Source: Desulfocapsaceae bacterium (GTDB taxonomy: Bacteria > Desulfobacterota > Desulfobulbia > Desulfobulbales > Desulfocapsaceae). From it: 64,000 nucleotides of DNA. Below are positions 1,921-43,987 of this stretch, in pieces. The position numbers and the translations under genes were made by a program. The stretch lies in assembly GCA_030653035.1 (NCBI GenBank), contig JAUSAB010000030.1:1-64000 (forward strand). Direction: 5' to 3'. The notes under the pieces are model-generated. The model was not told the origin of the DNA. It saw only the letters and a program-made list of their open reading frames with translations, and did not search any database. Within the stretch, counting starts at the first letter, position 1. Every line of letters begins with the position of its first letter.

Positions 1921-2243
1921 GTACCATGACATTCAAAGAATATGCTGCCAGAATTGAATACAGTGATGAAGATGGATGCTTTGTCGGGCATATTGCCGGT
2001 ATTAAAGATATTATCGGCTTTCATGCCGAAACTGTCAAAGAGCTTCGAGCCGCATTTGAAGAGGCCGTTGACGATTATATCACCACATGTGCGGAGCTTG
2101 GGCGTGCCCCTCAAAAACCTTATTCAGGCAAGCTCATGCTGCGCGTGCCACCTGAAGTTCATGCCCGGGCCGCCATGATGGCGCAAGCTCATGGCGTAAG
2201 TATCAATCAGTGGGCAAGTGATGTTCTGGCCCATGCATCTTGA
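1917..2243 (+). CDS. hicB: HicB-family antitoxin
   Basis: A 108-residue antitoxin with an N-terminal partial-RNase-H-like HicB domain (YSDEDGCFVGHIAGI at about 15-29, then ELRAAFEEAVDDYI) and a C-terminal ribbon-helix-helix segment (LMLRVPPEVHARAAMMAQ then SINQWASDVLAH) for DNA binding and autoregulation. The gene order toxin-antitoxin and the four-base overlap with hicA are normal for this family. Confidence 0.9.
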   Translation: MSTMTFKEYAARIEYSDEDGCFVGHIAGIKDIIGFHAETVKELRAAFEEAVDDYITTCAELGRAPQKPYSGKLMLRVPPEVHARAAMMAQAHGVSINQWASDVLAHAS

Positions 2244-2440
2244 CTGGCTCACACCTAAAAGGAGACTGTGCACAGAAAACAGGGTCTACCAAGGCATTTG
2301 GGGTCAGAGTAAAATTATCCACCCCTTTTTTCTGTATCGGTGAAATCATGGACACTCCCCCTATCCTTCCTTGAACAGAACGCATACAAATAGCCATACT
2401 TTTATATGGAAAATGACGATACAATGTGTAAGTTGATCAT

Positions 2441-9134: not shown

Positions 9135-11447
9135 CTACTCCAAAACACCCAGATAATTAAAGGTGGGAAGTTTTGCCACCCGGCCAACCCCGCTGAGCCT
9201 GTCGGTCAGGGCCAGCATATCCTGCTGGCTGGTGGGGAGATTGCAGAGATCAACAACCACATAATCAAGCCCTGCATCCCGTAATTCTCCGAGATACGGC
9301 AACAGCGAGAATGGCCGGCGAGGCACGGTTTTGACCAACCCGTCTTTCTTGTGCATGGTGAACGCTTCTCCCTTGGGGCTGAGCAGAACCCGATCATACT
9401 GAAAATGGCGGGCCGCAATCCTGGCGGTAAACAGGGCCGGAGCGCCATAGACGGTAAGCCCCTTGCGGATATGCTGATAATTGGCCCGGCTGCCTTTAAT
9501 GATATCGGCAAGCAGACTCTGATCTGATTCGATGGACAGTTGGGCCGCCTCCGCCCCCAGATGAATAACTGCGGCCAGGGCCTGATTATTCATGAGACTC
9601 ACGGTATAGTCACAAGACAGGTGGACCCTTTCCCCACGAAACATCCAGGCCTGACTGATGTGACCGATCTGAAAACTTTTAAAACCGGAACGCATGAGAA
9701 GGGTAAGCTGCTTCTGGACCTGGGCCACATCTGACTCAAACAGGACAGGCGGCAAACACCAGGTTATATTGCGGATTCCCTGCCCCATGTAGCGTTTGAT
9801 CTGCCCAACCTGGCTGACAGTGGTTTTATCGAGCGGCACCAGAAAACGGTCCGGGGTAAAAGGCAACCGCTCCTGCAAGACCTTGAGGGAATCCGTCTTC
9901 AGCCACCATTCGAGCGGCAATTTCACCTTGACCGGACCGGTTTTCCGTGGCGTGGCCCGCGGCTTGCCCTCGCCCTTTCCTTTCTTGTCAACTGGTTGCA
10001 ATTTCGCTTCTTTGTCGGCAGTAAAACAGACTTCATTGTGAATAGTCGTAATGCGTCTTCGCTGTGCTTCCTGGATCTTGCCAACAAGATCCTTCATCTC
10101 GCCGATCCCAGGGAGCCCGAATTCTCCATCCGTGACCTGTGGCCGGGTACGAACATCCACCTTGTACAGATCAACCATCCTCGCCCCAGCCGGGACAAGA
10201 TCGGCAGGCAGGGCAATCTGCACCTTTTCCCCTGCCAGGGCCAGCTCGACAGAATCCTTGCCCTTGAGCATCTCCTGCAAGGTGAAACTGTGTCGCGCAC
10301 CCGACGTCTCCAGATGCAGGCGCAACCGGTCTCCGGTCTCCAGTTCATCCTTTAAGGTCAGGGTTCCATAGCAACCATTTTTTTTCTGATTCACCGCATC
10401 CAACCGGCCAAGATGGAGACCAATATTGCCGGAATGATAAGGAGTGATCGCCTCGACAGGTTGCGGAGACAGAAAATAACCGGGGCCGACCTTGCGGCTC
10501 ATGGCCTTCTCCGCAAGCTGCTGGGCCTTTCTCAGAACCAAAGGAAAGCTGCCGGCATCGGCATCCGCCGCCCTTTCGCCGTCCTTGGCTAGGGCGGCAC
10601 GATGGCGTCCATGCCAGTCGATCACCATCCGGTAGGCCTGGACCACATGGGAGACATAATGGGCCGTGCGCAGCCGCCCTTCAATCTTCAGGGAGGCAAC
10701 CCCTGCCTCAATAAGCTGGGGCACGGCCTCCAGCCCGCCCAGATCATTCATGGAAAACAGGTAGCCTCCCTTCCCGCCCTGGCCGCCGGATGGTTCTTTG
10801 CCGCCCTTCTTTCCACCTTTCAGTCCGCTTTTAATTCCACCTTTTGCCTCCCATGTGTACTGGCGCCGACACGGCTGGACGCAACGGCCACGCAGGCCGC
10901 TCTTGCCTCCCAAAAAAGAGGAAAAAAGACAGAGACCCGAATAGGAAAAGCACATGGCCCCATGGACAAAGACCTCGATCTCGGCCTCGGTCTTCTTACA
11001 GATGGCGTTGATCTCTTTTAAGGTCAATTCGCGGGCAAGCACCACCCGCTCAAAACCCATATCGGTAAAGGCACGCACAGCATCAGAATTATGGGCGGCC
11101 ATAAGGGTGGAGGCATGGAGCGGAAGAGCGGGGAAATAATCCTGCACCAGCTTGATCACCCCCAGATCCTGAACAATGAGGGCGTCCGGCTTCAGTTCTT
11201 CGAGGATGGCCAGGGTTTCAATCACCTGGGGCAGATCCTGCTCCCTGACCAGACTGTTGGCAGCAAGGTAAAATTTCAACCCATGCCCCCGACAGTAGTG
11301 GATCATGGCAGCGATCTCATCCAGACGCAGATCACGGGCCAGGTTTCTGGCATTAAAACCAGGGGCGCCGACATACACGGCATCAGCACCGGCATCAACA
11401 GCAGCCCGAAAGGACTCCATATTGCCGGCAGGGGCGAGTAATTCCAT
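9135..11447 (-). CDS. U32 family peptidase / RlhA-like RNA modification protein
   Basis: A 770-residue U32-family protein. The N-terminal TIM-barrel starts MELLAPAGNMESFRAAVDAG and includes GADAVYVGAPGFNARN and VFVHGAMCFSYSGLCLFSSF; the cysteines of this stretch and of GRCVQPCRRQY are those expected to bind an iron-sulfur cluster. Members are linked to prephenate-dependent hydroxylation of rRNA (RlhA) or tRNA (TrhP), and older work calls them collagenase-like peptidases. The C-terminal half is a second barrel-like domain typical of the long subgroup. Oddities: a glycine-lysine-rich low-complexity insert (about residues 205-230) and a basic linker near residue 505. Confidence 0.85.
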   Translation of the reverse strand: MELLAPAGNMESFRAAVDAGADAVYVGAPGFNARNLARDLRLDEIAAMIHYCRGHGLKFYLAANSLVREQDLPQVIETLAILEELKPDALIVQDLGVIKLVQDYFPALPLHASTLMAAHNSDAVRAFTDMGFERVVLARELTLKEINAICKKTEAEIEVFVHGAMCFSYSGLCLFSSFLGGKSGLRGRCVQPCRRQYTWEAKGGIKSGLKGGKKGGKEPSGGQGGKGGYLFSMNDLGGLEAVPQLIEAGVASLKIEGRLRTAHYVSHVVQAYRMVIDWHGRHRAALAKDGERAADADAGSFPLVLRKAQQLAEKAMSRKVGPGYFLSPQPVEAITPYHSGNIGLHLGRLDAVNQKKNGCYGTLTLKDELETGDRLRLHLETSGARHSFTLQEMLKGKDSVELALAGEKVQIALPADLVPAGARMVDLYKVDVRTRPQVTDGEFGLPGIGEMKDLVGKIQEAQRRRITTIHNEVCFTADKEAKLQPVDKKGKGEGKPRATPRKTGPVKVKLPLEWWLKTDSLKVLQERLPFTPDRFLVPLDKTTVSQVGQIKRYMGQGIRNITWCLPPVLFESDVAQVQKQLTLLMRSGFKSFQIGHISQAWMFRGERVHLSCDYTVSLMNNQALAAVIHLGAEAAQLSIESDQSLLADIIKGSRANYQHIRKGLTVYGAPALFTARIAARHFQYDRVLLSPKGEAFTMHKKDGLVKTVPRRPFSLLPYLGELRDAGLDYVVVDLCNLPTSQQDMLALTDRLSGVGRVAKLPTFNYLGVLE

Positions 11448-42393: not shown

Positions 42394-43221
42394 ATGAATT
42401 TTCCTAAAATAGATTTAAACAAGCTGAAAAACGAGGGTACCGAATCGGTTACCGTCAAAGAAAGACGTAACTTTCTCAAACTGGGCTTTGCCATTACCGG
42501 TGTCTATGCCAGTGGCAAAATACTCTCTTTATCTTCCGTGCTCAATGATGTCGCCTATGCCTCTGGCGGTGCTGATTTTGTGGAGAAATATCCCTATAAT
42601 CCCCATTACAGCATGGTTATCCGTCAATCACTGTGCATTGACTGTGAAAAATGCGTAGAGGCCTGCAACAAGACAAATCATGTCCCAGAATATGGTTACC
42701 GAACCCGTATTCTTACCCGCAAGTATCAAGGGCAACTGGATAAAAAGGTAGAATTCATCCCTGTCTTATGTAATCACTGCAACGATGCCCCTTGCGTCCG
42801 GGCATGTCCAACCAAAGCAACCTATAAAGATGCAGTTACTGGTATCGTTCGCATGGAAAGTAAAAAATGCATCGGCTGCAAAACATGCATGCTGGCCTGT
42901 CCTTATGACGCCCGCTATTTCAGCGCAGAAAGGCATGCCATTGACAAATGTGATTTCTGTTGGGATGAAAGATTATCGAAAGGGGAAACCCAAACCGGTT
43001 GTTCTTCCGCCTGTCCTACCGGCGCGCGGACCTTTGGCAACCTGACCGATCCTGAAAACATTGTCTTCAAACTGGTGCACCAATTAGAAGAAAGCGTTTG
43101 GGTCCTCCGTCCTGAAGATGGGACAAAACCAAATATTTTCTACATGAAGGGAAATATGGTGTCTGTGGATAACATTTTGAAAGGACAGAAATTTATTTAT
43201 ACTGATCCGGCCAAAAGCTGA
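42394..43221 (+). CDS. Tat-exported four-cluster [4Fe-4S] ferredoxin (NrfC/PsrB-like)
   Basis: A 275-residue iron-sulfur protein. The N-terminus has a twin-arginine motif (KERRNFLKLGFAITGVYAS) for Tat export. Four cysteine clusters follow: CIDCEKCVEACNKTNH, CNHCNDAPCVRACP, CIGCKTCMLACPYD and CDFCWDE ... GCSSACPTG, the pattern of NrfC/PsrB/PhsB electron-wire subunits. With NrfD and the hexahaem cytochrome, but with no molybdopterin subunit, it forms a quinone:cytochrome-type module. Followed by an intrinsic terminator. Confidence 0.92.
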   Translation: MNFPKIDLNKLKNEGTESVTVKERRNFLKLGFAITGVYASGKILSLSSVLNDVAYASGGADFVEKYPYNPHYSMVIRQSLCIDCEKCVEACNKTNHVPEYGYRTRILTRKYQGQLDKKVEFIPVLCNHCNDAPCVRACPTKATYKDAVTGIVRMESKKCIGCKTCMLACPYDARYFSAERHAIDKCDFCWDERLSKGETQTGCSSACPTGARTFGNLTDPENIVFKLVHQLEESVWVLRPEDGTKPNIFYMKGNMVSVDNILKGQKFIYTDPAKS

Positions 43222-43245: not shown

Positions 43246-43284
43246 AAAAAAGGGCAAACCCTCACCGGGTTTGCCCTTTTTTTA
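43246..43284. terminator. Bidirectional intrinsic terminator
   Basis: AAAAAAGGGCAAACCC and GGGTTTGCCCTTTTTT form a strong stem with a five-base loop (TCACC), with A-rich sequence on one side and T-rich on the other. It ends the redox operon on the plus strand and the riboswitch transcript on the minus strand. Confidence 0.92.
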
Positions 43285-43312
43285 TTTTATAATATCTGCA
43301 TTCATTGCATTA

Positions 43313-43417
43313 TCAAATCTCACCACGTCGCCAAAGACGCATGACCATCTGAAAACTGTCCCAATCCTTGATCCAAAGAAGCATCATCTTGGTCACCACC
43401 CGTTCCTGTAAAATCAT
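43313..43417 (-). CDS. 34-residue ORF controlled by the cobalamin riboswitch
   Basis: MILQERVVTKMMLLWIKDWD continuing SFQMVMRLWRRGEI. AGGAGG lies five bases before the ATG, a very good ribosome-binding site, and the intrinsic terminator follows 29 bases after the stop. It is rich in Trp, Met and basic residues and could form one amphipathic helix. It matches no B12-related family I know. It could be a real small protein, a leader peptide, or the remnant of a replaced B12 gene. Confidence 0.5.
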   Translation of the reverse strand: MILQERVVTKMMLLWIKDWDSFQMVMRLWRRGEI

Positions 43418-43588
43418 GTGAACCTCCTGTAAAAAAGCAGTTGAGGTCAAGGGAAAAAAATCCCCAGACCGACAAGTTGATGGACCCGCACAGAAACGTG
43501 AAGCCATCAATGTTATCGACCCATGGATGTCCCATTATATCCACAAGATCATACATTCATTACCGATACTCCACGACGGTAGTGATCC

Positions 43589-43612
43589 AGCATGTTCAAA
43601 GATCAACATGCT
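43589..43612 (-). promoter_or_regulatory. Hairpin in the riboswitch expression platform
   Basis: AGCATGTT and AACATGCT form a perfect eight-pair stem with an eight-base loop five bases downstream of the B12 box. No U run follows, so it is not an ordinary terminator. Confidence 0.5.
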
Positions 43613-43616
43613 GACT

Positions 43617-43792
43617 TTTCAGGCAGGTCTTCTGACTTCCGGATCATTCTCTTCATGCGCCTTCCCATCATATTCCGGTTATTCACAGAATATGACAGTG
43701 ACGTTATGCATGATTCGTCCCCGGTTACAGCGGCGGGCCCATCTTCGATTTTCACGAAGTTCCCTTTTACTGTCCTGTAACGGACACCTGAA
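43617..43792 (-). promoter_or_regulatory. Cobalamin (B12) riboswitch
   Basis: Read on the minus strand, the conserved elements occur in order: GGTGTCCG, AAAAGGGAACTTCGTGAAAA (P3-type stem CTTCG/CGAAG), GGGCCCGCCGCTGTAACCGG, GTCACTG, a hairpin ATATTC...GAATAT, TGGGAAGGCGCATG, and the B12 box GGAAGTCAGAAGACCTGCC. This is a full aptamer. It binds adenosyl- or methylcobalamin and normally shuts down B12 synthesis or transport genes. None is encoded downstream here. Confidence 0.95.
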
Positions 43793-43804
43793 ATTATTCT
43801 ATCA

Positions 43805-43833
43805 TGTTTAATAGGCAAGCAGGATTTTGTCAA
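43805..43833 (-). promoter_or_regulatory. Sigma-70-type promoter of the riboswitch transcript
   Basis: TTGACA (perfect -35) at 43833-43828 and TAAACA at 43810-43805 with a 17-base spacer; transcription would begin just before the aptamer. Confidence 0.55.
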
Positions 43834-43987
43834 TAAACAAAAGGAACAATGCACTCTATATTGATGAGCACAACAGCGGCAGACACAACATAAAGCACAA
43901 CCAGTCGCGCCTTCATAAAAAAAGGTCCACCAGACTGCAAGCCTGGCGGACCTCTAAGACAAAAAAGAAAATATTCAGATTATCTTA

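Follow-up and report, generated by a model that had tools for sequence, protein, structure and literature searches.

Two described systems come close to the locus analysed here. In Mycobacterium tuberculosis, uPPE2 is a short translated upstream ORF which lies behind a B12 riboswitch and before ppe2, with an AUGA overlap; according to the part of the source consulted, uPPE2 is partially conserved and is needed in cis for the expression of ppe2, and the switch is translational (PMC11260477). EutX/Rli55 is a small RNA under the control of a B12 riboswitch, and in the consulted part of its description the RNA sequesters EutV (PMC5821096).

The present locus lies in a window of 64,000 nucleotides, which is the whole stretch of DNA that was analysed, and follows the minus strand in the order probable promoter, cobalamin aptamer, terminator-like hairpin, AGGAGG, 34-codon ORF and strong bidirectional terminator:

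43805..43833, minus strand: probable promoter, TTGACA (-35) and TAAACA (-10) with a spacing of 17 nt, recognised by conservation in the genus
43605..43806, minus strand: cobalamin riboswitch aptamer RF00174 with an intact B12 box (cmscan, 100.5 bits, E 6e-24)
43454..43528, minus strand: expression platform, a long hairpin resembling a terminator, which lies before the ORF and closes with a run of seven T (RNAalifold consensus)
43423..43428, minus strand: Shine-Dalgarno AGGAGG (from the sequence)
43313..43417, minus strand: gene for the 34-aa microprotein MILQERVVTKMMLLWIKDWDSFQMVMRLWRRGEI (profile matches, pN/pS)
43246..43282, minus strand: bidirectional intrinsic terminator that ends the microprotein transcript (16-pair stem with a T run on each strand)

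With uPPE2 this arrangement shares a short ORF behind a B12 riboswitch, and an AUGA overlap recurs in 15 places in relatives where a TonB-dependent receptor gene follows; as far as the consulted part of that source goes, it differs in that the peptide is conserved across the order, the platform is terminator-like and no gene follows in the window. With EutX/Rli55 it shares a cobalamin riboswitch and a terminator in control of a regulator acting in trans, here a proposed one, rather than of a metabolic gene; in the same partly consulted source, however, the product of that system is RNA, whereas the conserved product here is a protein and the transcript is not a non-coding one. Riboswitch targets are usually taken to be transporters or enzymes, but here the steady companion of the switch through much of the order is a small protein of ~30-50 residues, belonging to a family that is undescribed and absent from Pfam and NCBIfam. 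We regard it as reasonably likely that the ORF encodes a dedicated riboswitch-driven microprotein, made when B12 is scarce and acting in trans, probably on corrinoid acquisition.

A first-pass annotation of this DNA had described a full B12 aptamer with its own promoter, reading only into a strongly initiated 34-codon ORF and a terminator, and most of this description stands. The aptamer is complete (model positions 1-189; 100.5 bits by cmscan against a gathering score of 31.5) and nothing else in the window reaches an Rfam gathering threshold. The ORF opens with ATG at 43417 behind its AGGAGG, spans 34 aa and has a stop that ends at 43313; 30 nt past this stop begins the terminator, whose stem is much more stable than shuffled sequences (-25.7 kcal/mol, z -6.8). 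The promoter was upheld by one line of evidence but not by another: TTGACA (43828-43833) is identical in 13 of 13 aligned genus sequences and is followed 17 nt on by a TAnAnA box, whereas a consensus promoter scan gave nothing directly ahead of the aptamer on that strand, so that the case for a promoter belonging to the riboswitch rests on conservation. Upstream on the same strand, the neighbouring gene codes for a Metal_resist-domain protein; a terminator-like hairpin (window 43921-43955, minus strand) stands between it and the riboswitch promoter, so the riboswitch probably has a transcript of its own.

Past the ORF, no same-strand ORF of at least 60 aa was found within 300 nt in the window, and no B12 gene follows the riboswitch and ORF there, as had been annotated. 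The convergence on a redox gene with a shared terminator was likewise confirmed, the neighbour being a 4Fe-4S protein gene (42394-43221, plus strand). Since both transcripts converge on one bidirectional terminator, B12-controlled read-through could in principle yield an RNA antisense to the convergent redox operon, as the annotation had suggested, but the terminator is a strong one, and three of the 12 genus loci (L091, L093, L094) keep riboswitch and ORF without the convergent redox gene, an orthologue of the redox gene being found on another contig in each of these genomes; as a conserved function, antisense control is the least probable of the explanations considered here.

Between aptamer and ORF, the platform hairpin is conserved in the genus, with 23 RNAalifold consensus pairs at -22.3 kcal/mol in 11 of 13 sequences, four of the pairs being changed on both sides; the fold pairs CCCCGGGTCGA...TCGGTTCGGGG around an inner TTGATGG/CCATCAA stem and leads into a T run. 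The simplest reading of this platform, a transcriptional OFF switch, draws on that conservation, because the fold of the window itself (-28 kcal/mol over 104 nt) is no more stable than shuffles, at z -1.0. By a crude rule, 51 of 69 loci have at least one hairpin with a T run before the ORF, mostly some 40-70 nt from the start codon; the rule takes hairpins up to ~41 nt and found no upstream terminator in nine of the 12 genus loci, whose stem is longer. Past the ORF, the same rule finds a terminator in 11 of 12 loci elsewhere in the genus but in only 4 of 20 loci farther out in the family.

To what extent the ORF is itself conserved was gauged from relatives. A search of 58 genomes (the window's own and 57 relatives) with the 34-aa protein gave matches in 12 of the 16 other genus genomes and weaker matches farther out; all translated farther loci listed, except L032, share the motif [K/R/T]DWDxFQ or something very near to it. 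Profile A1, built from 25 microprotein sequences and marked by the motif KDWDxFQ, matches 117 of 257 genomes of the order, or 116 once a spurious match in G056 is set aside, nearly always in single copy, and matches 75 of the 148 well-assembled genomes. The remaining 140 genomes, one of them the same-genus G015, indicate that the microprotein is not essential. Of the 17 genus genomes, 13 have it; there was no match in G001, G007 and G010, which are 55-76% complete, or in G015, which is 94% complete. At the G007 locus with the Metal_resist flank (L285), the sequence stops just past the flanking gene and has no B12 box; in G015 the flanking Metal_resist gene has no match either, so that the region is lost or unassembled. 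Two similar copies of the module occur in each of G211 (L272, L273) and G214 (L163, L252); as contamination estimates for both genomes are 6-7% and the L163 peptide is identical to the L164 peptide from G202, foreign contigs are possible there.

The pattern of change points to coding. For the genus, pooled pS is 0.57 and pN 0.14, giving pN/pS 0.25 (32 codons, 78 pairs), and mean heterozygosity at codon positions 1, 2 and 3 is 0.16, 0.14 and 0.32, respectively, a third-position excess equalled in 3 of 10000 permutations, which ignore relatedness. Across the order, conservation centres on E5 (107 of 111 distinct cores), W19 (110), D20 (108), F/Y22 (110) and Q23 (109), the alignment row of L155, in which W is replaced by G, being shifted one residue out of register. 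D18, D20, Q23 and K10 each use both synonymous codons (GAC 65 and GAT 40 for D18; CAG 86 and CAA 28 for Q23). The start is ATG in 116 of 119 places, and a Shine-Dalgarno-like 5-mer precedes it in 115 of 119 (relatives plus window) against 14 in shuffled leaders, a count in which starts having such a site were favoured wherever several were possible. A chance ORF was rejected on the strength of the matches in relatives, the order-wide profile matches and the genus pN/pS. As judged from sequence variation, the constraint on the ORF acts at the protein level and is that of purifying selection.

These data also bear on what the switch controls, for which the first-pass annotation had offered a small protein, an RNA, or a replaced target gene. 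The small protein is borne out by the conserved residues, the synonymous changes at invariant positions and the retained initiation sites. An RNA as the functional product, a B12-controlled sRNA or sponge, would fit a riboswitch and terminator with no B12 gene downstream, which is the arrangement of EutX/Rli55 in the consulted part of the source (PMC5821096), but changes that gather at third codon positions, different codons for invariant residues, a retained Shine-Dalgarno and start, and a B12 box-to-ORF distance ranging from ~105 to 460 nt make it highly improbable that the RNA is the working product. More improbable still is a decayed operon, in which the original B12 target was lost and the ORF is its remnant: a TonB receptor or CbiK gene does lie directly downstream in deeper relatives, but a remnant would drift, and here 13 of 17 genus genomes and 68 genomes in the family retain the frame, start and protein, with the genus pN/pS given above. 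Position does not support a replaced target either, as none of the 12 other genus loci has a B12 gene here (neighbours judged from sequence); the combination that the annotation had named as refuting its reading, an ORF not conserved beside the riboswitch and an intact B12 gene at this position, was not observed.

The association between ORF and riboswitch was followed at 120 places fetched from 117 genomes, in which the B12 box AGYCAGRAKACCTGCC was sought with up to 2 mismatches. In 118 of the 120 places it lies on the same strand and no more than 600 nt upstream; 2 places have one downstream on the same strand, and none has one within 600 nt on the opposite strand. The upstream box is missing at L067, whose contig breaks off 72 nt ahead of the ORF, and at L275 (G056), an 11-bit spurious match inside a long frame. 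All told, 116 genomes with a profile match have an upstream B12 box. Full covariance searches found RF00174 at 27 of 29 loci, the misses being a contig end (L020) and the chance match L032, which lacks the motif, and at 17 of 18 loci of a second set, where the missed L165 still has a B12 box; at named loci the box was found in 29 of 30, largely the same genomes repeated. Within the order, the linkage of riboswitch and microprotein is near-absolute.

Named records with the microprotein belong to Desulfobulbaceae, Desulfocapsa, Desulfocapsaceae, Desulfurivibrio, Desulfurivibrionaceae and generic Proteobacteria, with single records from Desulfoarculaceae, Desulfobacteraceae, Desulfobacterales and Patescibacteria. 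In a draw across the phylum, 9 of 395 genomes matched at E <= 0.01; five of them are from the order, and the four others, all marginal (E 0.004-0.008), have no B12 box at their loci. Several loci carry more than one riboswitch: at L071 (G049:C53:17005-19170), a stretch of ~2.2 kb contains three cobalamin-riboswitch-like matches, all on one strand, ahead of the microprotein ORF, which is accompanied by a permease-like gene and a gene for CbiK; two divergent cobalamin riboswitches stand ~230 nt apart in G051:C81 (L025:1731-1954, minus strand, and 2182-2377, plus strand); and in G018:C529 a TPP riboswitch (L029:1099-1210, plus strand) lies ~160 nt from the cobalamin riboswitch of a CbiK fusion, on the opposite strand.

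What follows the ORF varies with the lineage. Contexts were scored at 119 places of at least 15 bits, 68 of them in the window's family (f1) and 51 outside, and a same-strand ORF was counted if it was 60 aa long and within 300 nt. The f1 places comprise 45 without a same-strand ORF, 19 with another ORF, 3 cut by contig ends and 1 CbiK fusion, so that 64 of the 68 are stand-alone, having neither a TonB-receptor motif in the next ORF nor a CbiK fusion; among the 19 other ORFs, that of L072 is a GFO/IDH/MocA oxidoreductase, the rest being judged by their first residues. No linked partner gene was found in the window's genus. Outside f1, the next gene is a TonB-dependent receptor in 26 places, the microprotein is part of a CbiK fusion in 5, 2 places are cut and 18 have other contexts. 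Receptors were called by motif, and Pfam confirmed those of L070, L167 and L067 and a farther-downstream receptor in L069 (4 of 4). Read from the sequence, the ORF runs into the receptor gene at 18 places, its stop overlapping the start codon as ATGA in 15, as GTGA in 2 and as TTGA in 1; L177 and L272 are among them.

The association with CbiK (PF06180) takes the form of a single polypeptide, the microprotein sequence forming the CbiK N-terminus behind a B12 box at five places of family f6 and in G018, while most copies, including that of the window, are separate proteins. The five f6 fusions are 47-95% identical to one another and 51-60% to the unfused CbiK of L071, whereas the G018 fusion, known from one genome and cut by a contig end, shares 63-75% identity with the L159 CbiK and ~25-29% with those of f6; by these identities, CbiK fusions probably arose twice. 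Two CbiK groups of ~25% identity exist in the order, and many genomes have at least two CbiK matches in the PF06180 search. Ten genomes with the microprotein (G042, G048, G052, G055, G060, G063, G065, G066, G067 and G153) are among those listed as having no CbiK match, and CbiK was therefore dropped as the single target. As deeper relatives combine the riboswitch and ORF with either a TonB receptor or a cbiK fusion, the ORF is the constant part and the downstream gene the variable one.

An upstream ORF that serves translational coupling must be translated but need not conserve its sequence. The ORF could be such a cis-acting leader peptide, whose translation (by coupling, stalling or polarity) tunes a downstream B12 gene, the stand-alone copies being relics or acting on themselves. 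In the order, it lies directly behind the riboswitch wherever both are seen, and the 18 overlaps with receptor starts recall the arrangement of uPPE2 as given in the consulted part of that report (PMC11260477); in the TonB-receptor contexts the ORF thus has the position of a leader, upstream of a gene that could be controlled, but in the window it does not. Most copies in f1 stand alone, the protein is under purifying selection, a terminator follows soon after in 11 of 12 genus loci, a stalling peptide within CbiK would be odd, and Patescibacteria-like genomes keep the single gene with no riboswitch at the locus, so that we consider a leader peptide unlikely, though the strongest of the alternatives to a trans-acting microprotein.

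The Patescibacteria-like copies are two. One, at L112:6001-6081 (G636:C26:14203-14292), is a free-standing microprotein gene in a record labelled Patescibacteria; the other, L299 (G638:C8:27245-27340), is the sole further match among 197 genomes around G636, G636 included. The proteins, MEQTFCKMTLFLIKDWDSFQTAMRTCL and MEQTFCKITIFLITDWDSFQKAMRKCL, are 27 aa long. L112 is flanked by HIT, phosphoglycerate kinase and triosephosphate isomerase genes, and G638 has the same order of HIT-like gene, ORF and PGK-like gene, as judged by eye. The possibility that L112 is a mis-binned contig is countered by these flanking genes, by the small genome of G636 (~0.9 Mb, with one microprotein copy) and by the second genome; since the gene order is common to both, contamination is disfavoured. 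Transfer between phyla likely lies behind the two copies.

No B12 box was found at either Patescibacteria-like locus, even with 3 mismatches allowed; in 11.4 kb of L112, the only named locus without the box, no cobalamin match was found at E 1, and an RF00174 search of the G636 genome gave no match. The protein can thus persist without a riboswitch or a following B12 gene. No B12-dependent ribonucleotide reductase scored above cut-off in G636 or G638, while the genome of the window has a match; together with the lack of a cobalamin riboswitch match in G636, this weakens the case for a purely B12-related target. Searches of the open-licence literature on Patescibacteria, B12 and Desulfobulb- returned nothing relevant, and the two free-standing copies raise the question of exchange between the Patescibacteria and the bacteria of this order.

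For a trans-acting microprotein, we propose the following course of events. When corrinoid is scarce, the aptamer would be empty, the terminator before the ORF would not form, and the 34-aa, probably helical protein would be made; when B12 is plentiful, transcription would halt before the ORF. The microprotein would then act in trans and most likely bind some part of the machinery that takes up or synthesises corrinoids, such as the TonB-dependent receptor system or CbiK, and its action would help the cell through the B12 shortage. Action in trans is suggested by the stand-alone copies, above all those without any riboswitch, and corrinoid acquisition as the target area by the TonB-receptor operons and the two kinds of CbiK fusion. 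A wider reading, which we advance tentatively and with rather less assurance, is that these are order-wide trans-acting microproteins, a protein counterpart of EutX/Rli55 that is made only during corrinoid shortage and that binds and resets a component common to the uptake of corrinoids or the insertion of cobalt; they would have been recruited repeatedly, as the coupled leading gene of TonB-receptor operons and as the N-terminal domain of two CbiK enzymes, and would have crossed into small-genome Patescibacteria, which keep the protein without the switch, perhaps to act there on the B12 economy of a host. If action in trans holds true, a protein layer of B12 homeostasis has been overlooked in these sulfur-cycle bacteria, because genes so short easily escape notice. 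'Orphan' riboswitches also offer a route to microproteins: the switch shows where a transcript begins, and one can then ask whether the product is conserved.

The protein itself resembles little that is catalogued. Eight microproteins gave no match in Pfam or NCBIfam apart from one insignificant Pfam match (E 0.24), no relatives were found in the PDB, where the best hit was a 10-residue coincidence in Actin-like protein 6A (E 0.12), and a search of the open-licence literature yielded no paper on such a protein by title or abstract start. AlphaFold2 predicted a single helix over residues 2-30 (pLDDT 80, pTM 0.35), and the hydrophobic moment is weakly above that of shuffles (mean z 1.3 for 118 cores).

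The genome of the window has four cobalamin riboswitches, the microprotein gene lying behind the fourth. One of the others precedes a cbiK without microprotein sequence, together with a BtuC-like gene and cbiL; another lies before a TonB-receptor gene accompanied by a BtuF-like one. The matches to BtuC, BtuF and the receptor score below NCBIfam cut-offs. The third precedes a ThiC-family gene that also resembles BzaB (L195:1855-3318 in G000:C67, with the riboswitch at 9177-9389). This gene scores above the ThiC cut-off and reaches 487 bits, which is below cut-off, on the BzaB lower-ligand model; its riboswitch suggests a lower-ligand role.
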